Assembly (NCBI RefSeq): GCF_018413645.1 | Contig: NZ_JAHCDA010000001.1 | Location: 1,488,001-1,552,000, forward strand | Direction: 5' to 3' | DNA length: 64,000 bases | From: Roseococcus pinisoli | Lineage (GTDB): Bacteria; Pseudomonadota; Alphaproteobacteria; Acetobacterales; Acetobacteraceae | Shown here: piece after piece, positions 10,535-59,790 of the stretch | How positions within the stretch are numbered: the first letter of the stretch is position 1 | Layout: every line of letters starts with the position of its first letter | Notes under the pieces: model-generated | What the model saw: the letters and a program-made list of their open reading frames with translations, nothing else | Told to the model about the DNA's origin: nothing | Databases searched by the model: none | Made by a program: the position numbers and the translations under genes

Positions 10535-11548
10535 TCACCCCGCCTGGGGTGGCGCGGTCGAGCTGCGGATCCTGAAGCCCGGCTGCAGGACCACGTCGCG
10601 CACCGGCAGCGACGAATCGGCGATCCGCTCCAGCAGCAGCTCCGCGGCGTGGATGCCGAGCTCGCGCCGCGGCACCGAGACGGCCGTCAGCTGGATCTGG
10701 GGCAGGCCGGCGATGAAGGTGTCCTCGAACCCCACCACCGACATGTCGGCCGGCATGGCCAGGCCGCGTTCGGCCAGGGCCATCGTCACGCCCAGCGCCA
10801 TCAGGTCCGAGGTAGCGATGAGGGCGGTGGGCGGCGCCGGCAGGTCCAGCATCTGCAGCGTCGCGTCGCGGCTGCCCTCGATCGAGAGGTCGACGCCGGC
10901 CACCATGCCGGGCAGCGGCGGCGCGCCGCGCCCGGTGAGGTATTCGGTATAGGCGTTTTGCCGCGCCTCGCTCGGGCTCGAGGCCGCATGGGCGCGCAGC
11001 AGCCCGATCCGCCGGTGGCCGAGCGACCAGAGATGCTCCAGCGCCAGCCGCATCGCGACCGGATCGTCCATGCCGACGAAGGAAACCTCGCTGCCGCCGG
11101 GCCTGCGCCACAGCGCCACCAGCGGCACGCCGGCCGCCAAGGCCCGCGTCGTGGCCTTCGTCTCGGAGGAGTAGGAGAGCAGCACGATGCCGTCGACCAT
11201 GTGCCGCAGCAGGTGCGTGACGTGCCATTCCTGCAGCTCGGCCCGTGATTCCGTGTTGCAGATGATCGTCTGGTAGCCGAGCGGCGTGAGCACGCTGCTG
11301 ATGCCCAGCAGGATGTCCGCATAGAAGGGATTGGCGAGGTTGGAGACCACGATCCCGACCGTGCCGGTCTGGCCGGTCCTCAGCGCCCGGGCGATGGGCG
11401 AGATGTGATAGCCGAGCTCCTCCGCCGCCTGCCGCACGCGGGCCTTGGTTTCGGCGGTGACGATCGGCTTGTCGGCCAGCGCGTTCGAGACCGTGGCCTC
11501 GGAGACGCCGACGCGCTTCGCGACGTCGCGGATGGTGACGCGCGCCAT
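10535..11548 (-). CDS. LacI family transcriptional regulator
   Basis: A 337-residue repressor-type regulator. The N-terminal helix-turn-helix VTIRDVAKRVGVSEATVSNAL (residues 4-24) and the hinge region ending at RALRTGQTGTVGIVV are classic LacI/GalR; the rest is a periplasmic-binding-protein-like sensor (ANPFYADILLGI, VDGIVLLS, ALIATSDLMALGVTMAL). It is convergent with the dioxygenase-Bug operon, whose promoter carries an 18-bp CG-centred palindrome, so it probably represses that operon until its ligand appears. No matching palindrome was seen in its own upstream region, so there is no sign of autoregulation. Confidence 0.94.
   Translation of the reverse strand: MARVTIRDVAKRVGVSEATVSNALADKPIVTAETKARVRQAAEELGYHISPIARALRTGQTGTVGIVVSNLANPFYADILLGISSVLTPLGYQTIICNTESRAELQEWHVTHLLRHMVDGIVLLSYSSETKATTRALAAGVPLVALWRRPGGSEVSFVGMDDPVAMRLALEHLWSLGHRRIGLLRAHAASSPSEARQNAYTEYLTGRGAPPLPGMVAGVDLSIEGSRDATLQMLDLPAPPTALIATSDLMALGVTMALAERGLAMPADMSVVGFEDTFIAGLPQIQLTAVSVPRRELGIHAAELLLERIADSSLPVRDVVLQPGFRIRSSTAPPQAG
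10536..10551. terminator. Short hairpin at the convergent Bug/LacI gene ends
   Basis: CACCCC-GCCT-GGGGTG forms a 6-bp stem overlapping the last codons of the LacI gene, 17 bases after the Bug gene stop. It could terminate plus-strand transcripts. There is no T run. Confidence 0.35.
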
Positions 11549-11698
11549 GTCAGGCGGAGCCGCGGCAGGGGGAGGGGATTCGCACGCGCGGAGGTTAGCG
11601 GAGTGGGGCGAGCGCGGCGAATGCGATCAGGCTTGCCAGTCGCCGGCCTCGGCGCCTAGCTTGCCGGCATTCCGACACGAGCCACAGAGGAGGGCTGG

Positions 11699-11752
11699 AT
11701 GCACACCTACAACCAGCACCACCCCAGGGGTCCCGTTTCCGCCCTGCGATAG
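11699..11752 (+). CDS. Putative 17-residue leader peptide upstream of the ABC-F gene
   Basis: An ATG preceded by a very strong AGAGGAGGG ribosome site opens MHTYNQHHPRGPVSALR and stops at TAG. It is the main occupant of the 311-base stretch between the LacI gene and the ABC-F gene. Its last three codons (GCC CTG CGA) are exactly the 5' arm of a 9-bp hairpin, so its translation must affect that structure. The PRGP stretch recalls the Pro/Gly/Arg arrest motifs of SecM-like peptides. ABC-F genes are often controlled by such leaders. The role is inference; the frame, ribosome site and hairpin are seen directly. Confidence 0.5.
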   Translation: MHTYNQHHPRGPVSALR

Positions 11753-11813
11753 GTTTTTCTTTCGCAGGGCAGGCCGCCTGAAGCCGTCATGCTTCCGTTC
11801 CGGACTGCCCTTT
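11741..11813 (+). promoter_or_regulatory. Putative attenuator: two mutually exclusive hairpins
   Basis: Hairpin 1 pairs GCCCTGCGA (11741-11749) with TCGCAGGGC (11762-11770). Hairpin 2 pairs AGGGCAG (11766-11772) with CTGCCCT (11805-11811), followed by TTT, and holds a small inner hairpin (GAAGC/GCTTC at 11780-11784 and 11791-11795). The two share bases 11766-11770, so only one can form at a time. The leader peptide ends inside hairpin 1. This is the arrangement expected for ribosome-controlled attenuation of the ABC-F gene at 11860. The T run is short, so hairpin 2 might act on translation instead. Confidence 0.45.
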
Positions 11814-11859
11814 GTCGCATCCGCGTGCTCCTGCGCGTGTCCGCTCGGAATTCTTCATT

Positions 11860-13341
11860 ATGGCCCTCATTGCCCTGCGCGACCTCGGCGTCGCCACGCC
11901 GCGTCCGCTCTTCCAGAATCTCACCCTCAACATCGGTCCCGGCGACCGCCTCGGCCTCGTCGCGGCCAATGGCGCCGGTAAGTCCACCCTGCTGCGCTGC
12001 CTTGCCGGGCGGGCCGAGCCGGATGCGGGGAGCGTCGTGCTCTCCCGCGGCACACGGCTCGGCTTCGTCGAGCAGGACCTGCCGCCCGGCCTGCTCGGCC
12101 TGAGCCTGAGCGAGGCCCTGCGCCGTGCCCTGCCGCCCGCCGGGCGCGCGCAGGAGGAATGGCGCGTCGGCGCGGTGCTGGACGAGTTCGCCACGCCCGA
12201 GGAACTGCGGGAACGTCCCCTAGCGGCCCTCAGCGGCGGCTGGCAGCGGCTGGCCCTGCTGGCGCGCGCCTGGATCGCCGCGCCGGACGTGCTGCTGCTG
12301 GACGAACCCACCAACCACCTGGACCTTGAGAAGATCGCGCTGCTGGAAGGCTGGATCGCCGGCCCGGCTTCCCGCACCCCGATGGTGGTCGCCAGCCACG
12401 ACCGCGGCTTCCTCGACGCCTGCACCAACCGCACCCTGTTCCTCCGCCCCGGCACGAGCCGGCTCTACGCCCATCCCTACGGCGCGGCGCGCGGCCTGCT
12501 GGCGGAGGATGATGCGGCCGAGGAGCGGCGGCAGCTCCGGGACGCCAAGGAGATCCATCGCCTGCGTCGCAACGCAGGCGAGCTGCGCAATATCGGTGTG
12601 AACAGCGGCAGCGACCTTCTGCAGAAGAAGTCCATGCAGCTGCGCGACCGCGCCGACCGGCTGGAGGCCACGCTGCGTCCGCTCCATGCGGAAAGGCCCG
12701 GAAGCATCCGCCTCGCCAGCCGGGGCACCCATGCGAAGGTGCTGGTTGCGATCCGCGACCTGGTGGTGGCCACGCCGGAGGGGCAGCCCCTCTTCCGGAT
12801 CGCGCGGCTGGATATCCGCCAGGGCGACCGGCTCGTGCTGCTGGGCCGGAACGGTGCCGGCAAGTCGCAGTTCATCCAGCTTCTGCGCCGCGCGACGGCC
12901 GAGCCTGTGGCAGGGGTGCAGGTCAGCCCCAGCCTGATCCTCGGCCATGCGGCCCAGGGCATGGCGCATCTGCCGGAGGGCCGGACGCCGCACGAGGTCA
13001 TCGCGGCGCATGCGGGCATCGGCGATGGCCGCGCCATCGCCCTGCTAGCCGGCGCCGGCATCGACGCCGAGGCGCAGCGGCGCCCCATCGCCCGGCTCTC
13101 GCCGGGGCAGAAGGCGCGGCTCGGTCTGCTGGTCCTGCGCCTGGCGGCGCCGAATTTCTATCTGCTGGACGAGCCCACCAACCACGTCGACATCCCGGGC
13201 CAGGAGCAGCTGGAGGAGGAACTGCTGGCGCAGGGCGCCACCTGCGTCCTGGTCTCGCACGACCGCCGCTTCGTCGAGGCCGTGGGGACGCGCTTCCTGC
13301 TAATCGAGGACGGCCGCGTGCGGGAGAAGGAAGGCGGCTAA
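11860..13341 (+). CDS. ABC-F family ATPase
   Basis: A 493-residue protein with two ABC ATPase domains and no membrane part, the mark of ABC-F proteins that bind the ribosome. Domain 1 has Walker [12 protein letters not shown] (as AANGAGKST near residue 43), signature [15 protein letters not shown] and Walker [15 protein letters not shown]. Domain 2 has Walker [11 protein letters not shown] near 330, a degenerate signature [12 protein letters not shown] and [13 protein letters not shown] charged linker of about 80 residues ([21 protein letters not shown]) separates them. The subclass is not clear; it is more divergent than the YbiT-like protein at 52698. The chosen ATG drops 16 non-family residues. 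Upstream is the leader/attenuator. It converges on priA with a 4-base overlap. Confidence 0.9.
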
Positions 13342-52697: not shown

Positions 52698-54320
52698 TCA
52701 GCTCCGCAGGCCGGGGGCCTCCTGGCCCGTGCGCGCGACATATTCCGTGTAACCGCCGCCATACTGATGGATGCCCTCGGGCGTCAGCTCCAGCACCCGG
52801 TTGGACAGGGCGGCCAGGAAGTGACGATCGTGCGACACGAAGAGCATGGTGCCCTCGTACTGCGCCAGGGCCGCGATGAGCATTTCCTTGGTGGCCATGT
52901 CCAGGTGGTTGGTCGGCTCGTCGAGCACGAGGAAGTTCGGTGGGTCGTAGAGCATCTTCGCCATGACCAGCCGCGCCTTCTCGCCGCCCGAGAGCACGCG
53001 GCAGCGCTTCTCCACCTCGTCGCCGGAGAAGCCGAAGCAGCCGGCGAGCGAGCGCAGCGAGCCCTGATTGGCCCGCGGGAAGGAGGATTCCAGCGCCTCG
53101 AAGACGGTCTGGTTGCCCTCCAGCAGCTCCATGGCGTGCTGGGCGAAATAGCCCATCCGCACGCTGCCGCCGAGGGTGACGCTGCCCTCGTCGGGCTCGG
53201 TCGAGCCCGTCACCAGCTTCAGCAGGGTGGACTTGCCGGCACCGTTCACGCCCAGCACGGCGCAGCGCTCCCGCCGGCGGACCAGCAGGTCCAGTCCTTC
53301 ATAGATCACGCGCTGGCCGTAGCGCTTGTGGACGCCCTTCAGGTTCACGACGTCCTCGCCCGAGCGCGGGGCAGGGGCAAATTCGAAGGAGACCGCCTGG
53401 CGGCGCTTCGGCGGCTCCACGCGCTCGATCTTGTCGAGCTTCTTCACCCGGCTCTGCACCTGGGCGGCGTGCGAGGCGCGCGCCTTGAAGCGCTCGATGA
53501 ACTTGATCTCCTTCGCCAGCATCGCCTGCTGGCGCTCGAACTGCGCCTGCTGCTGCGCCTCATTCATGGCGCGCTGCTGCTCGTAGAACTCATAGTCGCC
53601 GGAGAAGGAGGTCAGCCCGCCGCCGTCGATCTCGATCACCTTGTTGATGATGCGGTTCATGAACTCGCGGTCGTGCGAGGTGAGCATGAGCGCGCCCTCG
53701 TAGCCGGTCAGGAACTGCTCCAGCCAGATCAGGCTTTCAAGGTCGAGGTGGTTGGAGGGTTCGTCGAGCAGCATGACGTCAGGGCGCATCAGCAGGATGC
53801 GGGCCAGGGCCACGCGCATCTTCCAGCCTCCCGAGAGGTTGCTGACGTCGCCGTCCATCATCTCCTGGCTGAAGCTCAGGCCGGCGAGGACCTCCCGCGC
53901 CTTGCCCTCCAGCGCATAGCCGCCGAGATCCTCGAAGCGGCCCTGCACCTCGCCGAAGCGCTCGATGAGGCTCTCCATCTCGTCCATGCGGTCCGGATCG
54001 GCCAGCGCGGCCTCGAGCTCGGCCAGCTCGGCCGCCACGGTGCTGACGTCGCCGGCGCCGTCCATGACCTCGGCCACGGCGCTGCGGCCCGACATCTCGC
54101 CCACATCCTGGCTGAAGAAGCCGACGCTGATGCCGCGATCGACCAGGACCTGGCCCTCATCGGGCACCTCCTGCGCCGTGATCATCCGGAAGAGCGTGGA
54201 TTTGCCGGCGCCGTTCGGCCCGACCAGGCCGATCTTCTCGCCCTTCTGGAGGCTTGCCGAGGCCTCGATGAAGAGGAGCTGCTGGCCGTTCTGCTTGCTG
54301 ATGTTGTCGAGGCGGATCAT
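52698..54320 (-). CDS. ABC-F family ATPase (YbiT-like)
   Basis: A 540-residue soluble twin-ATPase of the ABC-F family. Domain 1 has Walker [16 protein letters not shown] and LSGGWKMRVALARILLMRPDVMLLDEPSNHLDLESL; domain 2 has [27 protein letters not shown] and [18 protein letters not shown]. The linker (QQAQFERQQAMLAKEIKFIERFKARAS) is the P-site tRNA-interaction helix pair typical of ABC-F. Ribosome-associated translation factors of this kind rescue stalled or non-optimal translation states. A second, different ABC-F lies at 11860. Confidence 0.94.
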   Translation of the reverse strand: MIRLDNISKQNGQQLLFIEASASLQKGEKIGLVGPNGAGKSTLFRMITAQEVPDEGQVLVDRGISVGFFSQDVGEMSGRSAVAEVMDGAGDVSTVAAELAELEAALADPDRMDEMESLIERFGEVQGRFEDLGGYALEGKAREVLAGLSFSQEMMDGDVSNLSGGWKMRVALARILLMRPDVMLLDEPSNHLDLESLIWLEQFLTGYEGALMLTSHDREFMNRIINKVIEIDGGGLTSFSGDYEFYEQQRAMNEAQQQAQFERQQAMLAKEIKFIERFKARASHAAQVQSRVKKLDKIERVEPPKRRQAVSFEFAPAPRSGEDVVNLKGVHKRYGQRVIYEGLDLLVRRRERCAVLGVNGAGKSTLLKLVTGSTEPDEGSVTLGGSVRMGYFAQHAMELLEGNQTVFEALESSFPRANQGSLRSLAGCFGFSGDEVEKRCRVLSGGEKARLVMAKMLYDPPNFLVLDEPTNHLDMATKEMLIAALAQYEGTMLFVSHDRHFLAALSNRVLELTPEGIHQYGGGYTEYVARTGQEAPGLRS

Positions 54321-59535: not shown

Positions 59536-59601
59536 GCCAGCTCTTTTTTCGCCGGTTGTGCGGCCGGCGAATCGATGCTCTGCTCGGTCCGTCCGCTAAT
59601 G

Positions 59602-59790
59602 GTTTGTGGGAGAGTGTGCGGGGCCGGACGGGCCGCGCACCGCCGACGGAGCAACCCCCAGGAAACTCTCAGGCTTCAGGGACCACAAACTCAGGACGAT
59701 CTGGAGAGAGGCACCGCGTGGTGCCCACCGAAGGGGACGCCCGGCCTTCTCCGCGAAGGCAGGGCTACGCTCTCAGGTACCGGGACAGAT
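59602..59790 (+). promoter_or_regulatory. Tandem glycine riboswitch (two aptamers)
   Basis: Two consecutive glycine aptamers. Aptamer 1 (59602-59690) is closed by P1 GTTTGTGG/CCACAAAC and contains GGGAGAG, GCCGACGGAGCAACC and GGAAACTCTCAGGC. Aptamer 2 (59699-59790) is closed by ATCTG/CAGAT and contains GGAGAGAGGCACC, CACCGAAGGGG and GCTCTCAGGTACCGGGACAGAT, the standard ending. The cores match the known class well. The 67 bases to the DadA-like GTG form the expression platform; its switching mode could not be resolved. The 322-base region 59536-59857 is otherwise non-coding. Confidence 0.92.

Follow-up and report, generated by a model that had tools for sequence, protein, structure and literature searches.

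A conserved Gly-Pro leader peptide and its hairpins as a probable translation attenuator of an alphaproteobacterial ABC-F clade

Introduction

Does the short reading frame that precedes an ABC-F ATPase gene in Roseococcus pinisoli form a regulatory leader, and which step would it control? We analyzed this locus within a 64,000-nucleotide stretch of the genome (hereafter the window). An earlier note had described here a 17-codon frame with a strong Shine-Dalgarno (SD) sequence, whose last three codons make up the 5' arm of a hairpin (hairpin 1), and had read the arrangement as ribosome-controlled attenuation. Frame, SD and arm are all present as described (Table 1), and ribosome-controlled attenuation is still the best reading, supported by conservation, by covariation in hairpin 1 and by the codon signature of the frame. 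From these comparisons, the conserved leader most likely attenuates translation of the ABC-F genes of one alphaproteobacterial clade. We found no description of a Gly-Pro ABC-F leader in the literature searched, most subscription papers lying outside that search.

Results

The leader is conserved upstream of one ABC-F clade

We compared the upstream regions of 74 ABC-F loci, namely 73 distinct fetched loci and the window, and found the frame and hairpin layout in 63 of them. To fire, the detector needed a core from a fixed list of variants, an Ala codon and an arm mismatched at no more than one position, and the core and pairing counts therefore arise partly by selection. This effect is countered by the 56 of 73 fetched loci that were recovered by the peptide pattern alone, since every one of the 56 proved to have the hairpin as well, 46 of them with a perfect 7-bp arm. 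Further, with a detector that permitted any residue ahead of Gly-Pro, the leader was found at all 16 additional full-length loci (at least 47% identity) from a phylum sample of 349 genomes. Frame and pairing are thus kept in relatives, the check that the earlier note had suggested, and the lack of conservation of either that it had named as damaging was not seen.

By sample, the leader precedes 39 of 42 ABC-F loci in 347 genomes of the family and 13 of 21 in 385 genomes of the class, the eight misses in the latter being L073 and seven more distant genes. All 21 gene-carrying genomes of the phylum sample belong to one class, the share of the 349 lying outside that class not being given. Four of its loci were not recounted (L172, the same as L076; L188, a fragment; L077, already in the set; L178, the window itself), and L187 (39% identity) is leaderless. 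The leaderless loci among the 74 are L092, L095 and L106 (57-64% identical), L073 (51%) and seven loci of at most 45% identity. No alternative core was found in leaderless loci, either by inspection (L073, L081, L092, L095 and L106) or by pattern (the rest).

We also estimated the background of the detectors. The relaxed detector behind the count of 63 fired in 20 of 566 stretches (450 nt each, overlapping) cut from the window, the leader itself among them. The strict detector (RGP with a perfect 7-bp arm) fired once in the window, at the leader, and nowhere in 256,980 bases of other loci on both strands. From a first set of 53 loci, we took into the analysis the 8 whose proteins align almost end to end at 63-83% identity; the other 45 were used for the peptide-pattern scan or background only and gave two chance-looking matches, L041 and L043. 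The duplicates L014, L015 and L016 were removed.

A covariance model, built from the same 42 of 63 leaders as the hairpin counts below, gave 14 matches of at least 35 bits in 385 alphaproteobacterial genomes, and 13 of these lie upstream of the ABC-F clade. Because most of the 13 are members of the model, the informative part is the scarcity of strong matches elsewhere. In the R. pinisoli genome (4.79 Mb) there was one strong match, the next best reaching 21 bits. The best match away from ABC-F, L148 (G333:C4:46112-46193; YDRRHGWRGPVSRL), falls inside a PBP1A-type coding frame and is probably a chance match.

In a FastTree tree of 92 rows (midpoint root; L134, L080 and L084 excluded), the leader loci fall into one clade of 80, 76 with the leader and 4 without, at a support of 95. 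Therefore, the simplest account is one origin followed by four losses. The rows nearest to the window are Roseococcus sp. SYP-B2431 and a Rubritepida metagenome-assembled genome. L092 and L090 carry close ABC-F genes, with end branches of 0.0097 and 0.025, and L092 is leaderless; its leader was probably lost recently when the upstream DNA was replaced.

The peptide core is under codon-level selection

The earlier note had compared HHPRGP in the leader peptide to Pro/Gly arrest motifs. Only its last three residues hold up: Arg/His-Gly-Pro (codons 10-12 in the window) is conserved, and the residues ahead of it vary among H, Y, R, N and Q. Over 79 leaders, the first core position is R in 65, H in 8, S in 2, C in 2, L in 1 and Y in 1; Gly and Pro each occur in 77, and each is written in all four codons. 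Pro is followed by V, C or I in 66 leaders.

We counted codon differences over the 496 pairs formed by 32 cluster representatives. At the Pro codon, 240 differences are synonymous and none is non-synonymous; the counts are 290 and 31 at the Gly codon and 235 and 117 at the first core codon, compared with 30 and 444 at the codon two past Pro. Two Pro-to-Ser leaders (L018 and L070) and one with HRP (L107) sit in clusters represented by others, and the RQP leader L071 represents its own cluster. The Ala codon that opens hairpin 1 is GCC in all 79 leaders, and the residues past it (L or P, then mostly Q or R) vary in step with the opposite arm. Because Pro changes only synonymously and the Ala codon is fixed, peptide-level selection sits next to an RNA stem. 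Judged by these codon patterns, a peptide signal and an RNA signal are both present and are cleanly separable.

An SD-like stretch precedes 73 of the 79 leaders, and the start codon is ATG in 50, GTG in 27, TTG in 1 and ATC in L093. The L093 leader is otherwise intact, with the usual SD, and its ATC is either a rarely used start codon or the sign of a recent loss. Counted to the core Pro, the chain has 10-17 residues (median 12), in peptides of 14-44 residues in total. We conclude that the frame is almost certainly translated. Its stop position varies over 63 loci: in the loop or 3' arm of hairpin 1 (the group of the window), directly past the 3' arm (peptides ending in LQG), or about 5-17 nt later, with 65 in L114.

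Hairpin 1 covaries and lies at a fixed distance from the core

Hairpin 1 has 9 bp in the window. The segment from 11738 to 11773 folds at -21.9 kcal/mol with a z score of -5.68, and none of 200 shuffles was equal, which places it far beyond chance. Across 42 leaders, pairing is kept in 98.9% of 378 cells, and falls to at most 49.2% when the partner is slid by 1-3 columns. Cells with both sides changed number 52 versus 17.4 in shuffles, a value that none of 500 shuffles reached.

The hairpin begins two codons past Gly-Pro. In 49 of the 52 loci with a perfect inverted repeat of at least 7 bp, the longest such repeat starts 15 nt from the first base of the core; these loci were chosen with an arm near the expected place, and 11 of 63 have no perfect repeat of that length. 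A stalled ribosome covers about 16 nt counted from the first base of the P site. Its footprint would therefore take in the first 4 bases of arm 1 when Gly is in the P site and the first 7 when Pro is, and a covered arm at a fixed distance is a requirement of a stall-operated hairpin.

A third segment pairs with hairpin 1 or with the ABC-F start region

In many relatives, we could read from the sequences a third segment with two possible partners, the tail of hairpin 1 and the bases immediately 5' of the ABC-F start. Examples are TCTGGTCT with AGACCAGA in rhizobial leaders, GTCTCATC with GATGAGAC in L079, L124 and L132, and CGGTCT with AGACCG in L076. Numbering the arms of hairpin 1 as segments 1 and 2 and the start-proximal partner as segment 4 (Table 1), we compared native with swapped partners. 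The third version of this test is relied on, the earlier two being weaker or faulty: native 3:4 pairing averages -15.3 kcal/mol versus -13.65 when swapped (p 0.0028, 32 clusters). The first version gave median ranks of 0.35 for 2:3 and 0.27 for 3:4, a slight native lean.

Folding with and without a ribosome at the core gave the following picture. At least four expected 3:4 pairs are found in the free RNA of 55 of 79 leaders (21 of 32 clusters). With Gly in the P site, leaders with at least four 2:3 pairs rise from 12 to 41 of 79 (from 6 to 15 of 32 clusters). The mean cost of opening the ABC-F start drops from 8.47 to 6.85 kcal/mol with a ribosome at the core (63 leaders), and 22 of 38 clusters have a drop of more than 1 kcal/mol versus 31% of shuffled-middle controls; with Pro in the P site, 14 of 32 clusters do. 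When the P site was slid along the frame, the mean drop was 0.94-1.16 kcal/mol at core codons 1 to 6 and 0.25 at codon 0, with no drop at codons -7 to -1 or 8 to 10. The effects of ribosome position on pairing and start opening are moderate, and the switch energies are modest.

For the free RNA of the window, the minimum free energy structure joins 11797-11802 to 11846-11851, and 11783-11787 to 11860-11864, where the ABC-F start codon lies. The earlier note had placed a second hairpin here, excluded by hairpin 1 and ending in TTT (hairpin 2; GGGCAG, 11767-11772, with CTGCCC, 11805-11810). The complementarity and the mutual exclusion stand. Folding of the window's own leader does not yield hairpin 2, which we rejected as its equilibrium structure, and a consensus scan of 11500-11960, made for the window only, found no terminator-like site. 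The helix over the ABC-F start is better supported than hairpin 2, and translation from that start is a more likely output than a terminator. Mutually exclusive 3:4 and 2:3 pairings are thus supported by computation across the family, and not at equilibrium in the window, where 2:3 could form during transcription, ahead of the synthesis of segment 4. The relative L011 gains 2:3 on stalling, though there is little 3:4 in its free RNA.

The ABC-F protein and its distribution

The best NCBIfam match of the protein is NF000355 (ribo_prot_ABC_F) at 267 bits, under the cutoff of 380; relatives L129, L133 and L078 score 293, 281 and 291 bits. Among the best 25 of 188 NCBIfam matches, every family, curated resistance families included, fell short of its cutoff, and resistance-type and housekeeping-type ABC-F models are matched alike. 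Foldseek and PDB profile searches likewise returned ABC-F proteins of both types, among them EttA, PoxtA, VmlR2, YbiT, VgaA, Uup and YheS, which does not discriminate the kind of ABC-F. PADLOC matches were set aside, as they look like generic ATPase matches. The predicted structure (mean predicted local distance difference test score 84.2, predicted template modelling score 0.55) has two ABC domains linked by a long helical hairpin, 207-249/252-270. The tip residues N244, G246, N248, S251, D252, L253 and L254 do not vary in either of two alignments (16 and 12 rows). By analogy with other ABC-F proteins, this tip may act at the tRNA and the peptidyl-transferase centre.

The gene is patchy, being present in 2 of 20 genomes of the same genus and in 42 of 347 of the family. 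It also occurs on large plasmids, among them Sinorhizobium meliloti pSymA and a conjugative Ketogulonicigenium plasmid; there are 12 plasmid records, 6 of them typed as conjugative, nine of the 12 were fetched, and all nine keep the leader. Some ABC-F subfamilies, including the proteobacterial PAF1, have been predicted to be resistance factors, with patchiness within genera as a sign (PMC6723617). Patchiness within genera and mobile replicons are both seen here.

Layout of the locus

The features of the locus are collected in Table 1. The promoter-like element precedes the leader in 23 of 78 loci versus 1.3 expected from mononucleotide shuffles. A consensus promoter scan called none upstream of the window's leader, and the transcription start is therefore a predicted one. 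Judging from the translations, a LacI-type regulator frame runs divergently on one side, and a PriA-type frame follows downstream on the opposite strand; therefore, the ABC-F seems to be a solitary gene. Rfam covariance models gave no match in 11500-11960 up to E=1.

Table 1. Features of the ABC-F leader region, in window coordinates
Feature	Position	Strand	Remarks
Promoter-like element, TTGCCA, 18 nt spacer, TAGCTT	11633-11638, 11657-11662	+	Upstream of leader
Leader SD, GAGGAGGG	11687-11694	+	From sequence; GGAGG upstream of 67/79 leaders
Leader frame, 17 codons, MHTYNQHHPRGPVSALR	11699-11752	+	ATG 11699, stop TAG 11750-11752; conserved, core changes mostly synonymous
Core, codons 10-12, Arg-Gly-Pro	11726-11734	+	Conserved; proposed stall site, P site at the Gly or Pro codon
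Segment 1, 5' arm of hairpin 1	11741-11749	+	Codons 15-17, GCC CTG CGA; covariation; GCC Ala in 79/79
Segment 2, 3' arm of hairpin 1, TCGCAGGGC	11762-11770	+	With bases 3' of it, alternative partner of segment 3
Segment 3, TTCCGTTCCGGACTGCCC	11793-11810	+	Partner segment 2 (via CTGCCC 11805-11810) or segment 4; 2:3 weak in window
Segment 4, GTCCGCTCGGAAT	11839-11851	+	5' of ABC-F start; paired with segment 3 in free RNA
ABC-F ATPase gene	11860-13341	+	493 codons and stop; two Pfam ABC_tran stretches

Elsewhere in the window, a second ABC-F-like gene lies at 52770-53906 on the minus strand (G000:C1:1540770-1541906; 31% identity), and the covariance-model search of the genome gave no strong leader match for it. 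Tandem glycine riboswitch aptamers (Rfam RF00504, 59.2 and 39.9 bits) lie at 59597-59790 on the plus strand, followed by a frame whose translation reads as a DadA-type FAD-dependent amino-acid dehydrogenase.

Discussion

A model for the leader

In the erm(C) attenuator of Gram-positives, which controls an rRNA methyltransferase, four segments pair either as 1:2 and 3:4 or as 2:3, with the start site in segment 4. The leader described here would follow the same four-segment scheme with a different gene, host group and peptide. From its sequence features we consider it likely that translation attenuation of the erm/CplR type operates, in which a stall at Gly-Pro switches the ABC-F on. The mRNA would begin shortly upstream of the strong SD, and ribosomes would translate the short frame up to the Arg/His-Gly-Pro core at residues 10-17. 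If the core is passed, hairpin 1 would re-form and segment 3 would pair with segment 4 over the ABC-F start, leaving the gene off. A ribosome stalled with its P site at the Gly or Pro codon would instead cover segment 1 with its leading edge; segment 2 would then capture segment 3, which would release segment 4 together with the start codon. The newly made ABC-F could then act on stalled ribosomes.

Several observations weigh against this model. The case is made from sequence and folding, with stalling and expression as its predictions. The close relatives L092, L095 and L106, as well as L073, carry the gene without the leader, and the core reads RQP in L071, HRP in L107 and RGS in L018 and L070, in leaders that are otherwise intact; these natural variants are ready-made test cases for the tolerance of the core. 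Two of five covariation measures for hairpin 1 are not clearly above shuffles (pairs with a double change, 4 vs 2.8; further pair types, 9 vs 8.5). In the partner-swap tests, 3:4 ranks in the best tenth for just 8 of 32 clusters (uniform-rank p 0.07). The first test, with long segments, put 22% of 2:3 and 3:4 in the best tenth versus 10% expected, and the second gave a Kolmogorov-Smirnov p of 1.8e-4 but had put segment 3 in the wrong place in several rows, including W, L126 and L072. Placing Gly in the P site leaves at least four 3:4 pairs in 37 of 79 leaders (13 of 32 clusters). The opening cost shifts the opposite way by more than 1 kcal/mol in 6 of 38 clusters (24% of controls), and with Pro in the P site the drop is below -1 kcal/mol in 3 of 32. 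In the window, the 2:3 pair probability of hairpin 2 is 0.000 in free RNA and 0.020 or 0.003 with a stalled ribosome, the 3:4 pair 11800-11848 changes from 0.515 to just 0.467 or 0.475, and opening of the ABC-F start is eased by just 1.7 kcal/mol.

Alternative explanations

The same leader could act on transcription, the unstalled leader halting RNA polymerase at an intrinsic or Rho-dependent terminator and the stalled ribosome preventing the halt. ABC-F leaders often act in this way (PMC12421871, PMC10314930), E. coli toiL links start-site hiding to Rho termination (PMC12121999), and the 107 nt between leader stop and ABC-F start in the window leave room for it. But the window scan for terminators was empty, hairpin 2 is trailed by a mere TTT and pairing over the ABC-F start is maintained across clusters, so we hold a transcriptional switch to be unlikely. 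Codons for His, Arg and aromatic residues are abundant ahead of the core, as would suit an amino-acid starvation attenuator in which ribosomes wait at His, Arg, Gly or Pro codons when charged tRNA is short. What is kept is, however, a single Gly and a single Pro codon, in all four synonymous forms; the residues ahead of them vary, and ABC-F is no biosynthesis gene, all of which makes starvation sensing quite improbable.

The remaining alternatives concern the peptide itself. S. meliloti peTrpL has been reported as necessary for the regulation of a resistance operon (PMC7298713), and the leader peptide could likewise act in trans as a released small protein. Its post-core residues track the hairpin bases, its length ranges from 14 to 44 and selection on residues peaks at the core, which leaves a function in trans with even less to recommend it. 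The most implausible of all is an untranslated chance frame within a conserved RNA: very short frames are common and the motif was first chosen by eye, but the synonymous to non-synonymous ratios at Pro and Gly and the SD-like stretches argue strongly otherwise.

Relation to known leaders

The CplR leader of Clostridioides resembles the present one in having a short upstream open reading frame (uORF) ahead of an ABC-F gene whose start is hidden in RNA structure, and translation attenuation is stated to be sufficient for its repression (PMC10201436). It differs in its uORF of three residues, MR[I/M], and its intrinsic terminator (PMC10201436), compared with a peptide of 14-44 residues whose Gly-Pro core falls at residues 10-17, and a window scan that found no terminator-like site. 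The streptococcal MsrDL-msrD system (MYLIFM) has a nascent-chain stall ahead of an ABC-F, as is proposed here. There, stalling depends on erythromycin and occurs at the stop codon, with an intrinsic terminator (PMC10314930), and MsrDL has no sequence likeness to our leader. A terminator hairpin with a U-tract of the vmlR/msrD type was not seen in the window scan. Since feedback of an ABC-F on its own leader has been described for MsrD (PMC10314930), the feedback idea alone would not be new. In E. coli, the toiL uORF of topAI is also proposed to free a hidden start when stalled by antibiotics; the gene is another one, and stall positions are drug-specific instead of lying at one conserved core (PMC12121999).

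The core also resembles RAPP-like arrest peptides (ApdA, ApdP, ApcA, SecM, YwcI and CruR), in which Arg lies two residues ahead of a Pro in the P site, or Gly and Pro occupy the P and A sites (PMC12992588, PMC10987492, PMC9426467). RGPP, found in some homologs, supports arrest, HGPP is known from screens, and YwcI stalls at RAGP with Gly in the P site (PMC12992588, PMC10987492). Here too Arg precedes a small residue and Pro. The motifs differ, being R-A/G-P-P/G or R-A-G-P there and R/H-G-P followed mostly by V, C or I here, and RAPP-like motifs alone are stated to be insufficient for arrest in these sources.

Possible triggers and meaning

What would stall the ribosome? Given the length of the exit tunnel, the chain would still lie inside it at the stall, as just 10-17 residues precede that point. 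Export sensing is therefore impossible, and a drug, the tunnel or the ABC-F itself would decide. A peptidyl-transferase or tunnel inhibitor is the trigger that we would name first, at somewhat less than even confidence, and the known ABC-F leaders respond to ribosome inhibitors (PMC10201436, PMC12421871, PMC10314930). Drug-free stalling relieved by ABC-F is a more tentative candidate, another stress would account for the rest, and the ranking is not firm. On a bolder and slightly more doubtful version, the core would be a drug-free arrest inside the tunnel that is released by the cognate ABC-F, its invariant tip reaching the peptidyl-transferase centre, and this would make the leader a self-contained meter of ABC-F activity and a homeostat for Gly-Pro events that are difficult to translate in alphaproteobacteria.

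If the model is true, leader-peptide control of ABC-F genes would extend to alphaproteobacteria, among them Roseococcus, Acidisphaera, rhizobia including the S. meliloti pSymA plasmids, Gemmobacter and Ketogulonicigenium, and the motif involved differs from the peptides of the ABC-F leaders cited above. A drug-dependent leader would mark a hidden inducible resistance-like gene, and a drug-free one a feedback meter. The cause of a stall at the core, and any relief of it by the cognate ABC-F, would point to the natural substrate of this ABC-F clade.

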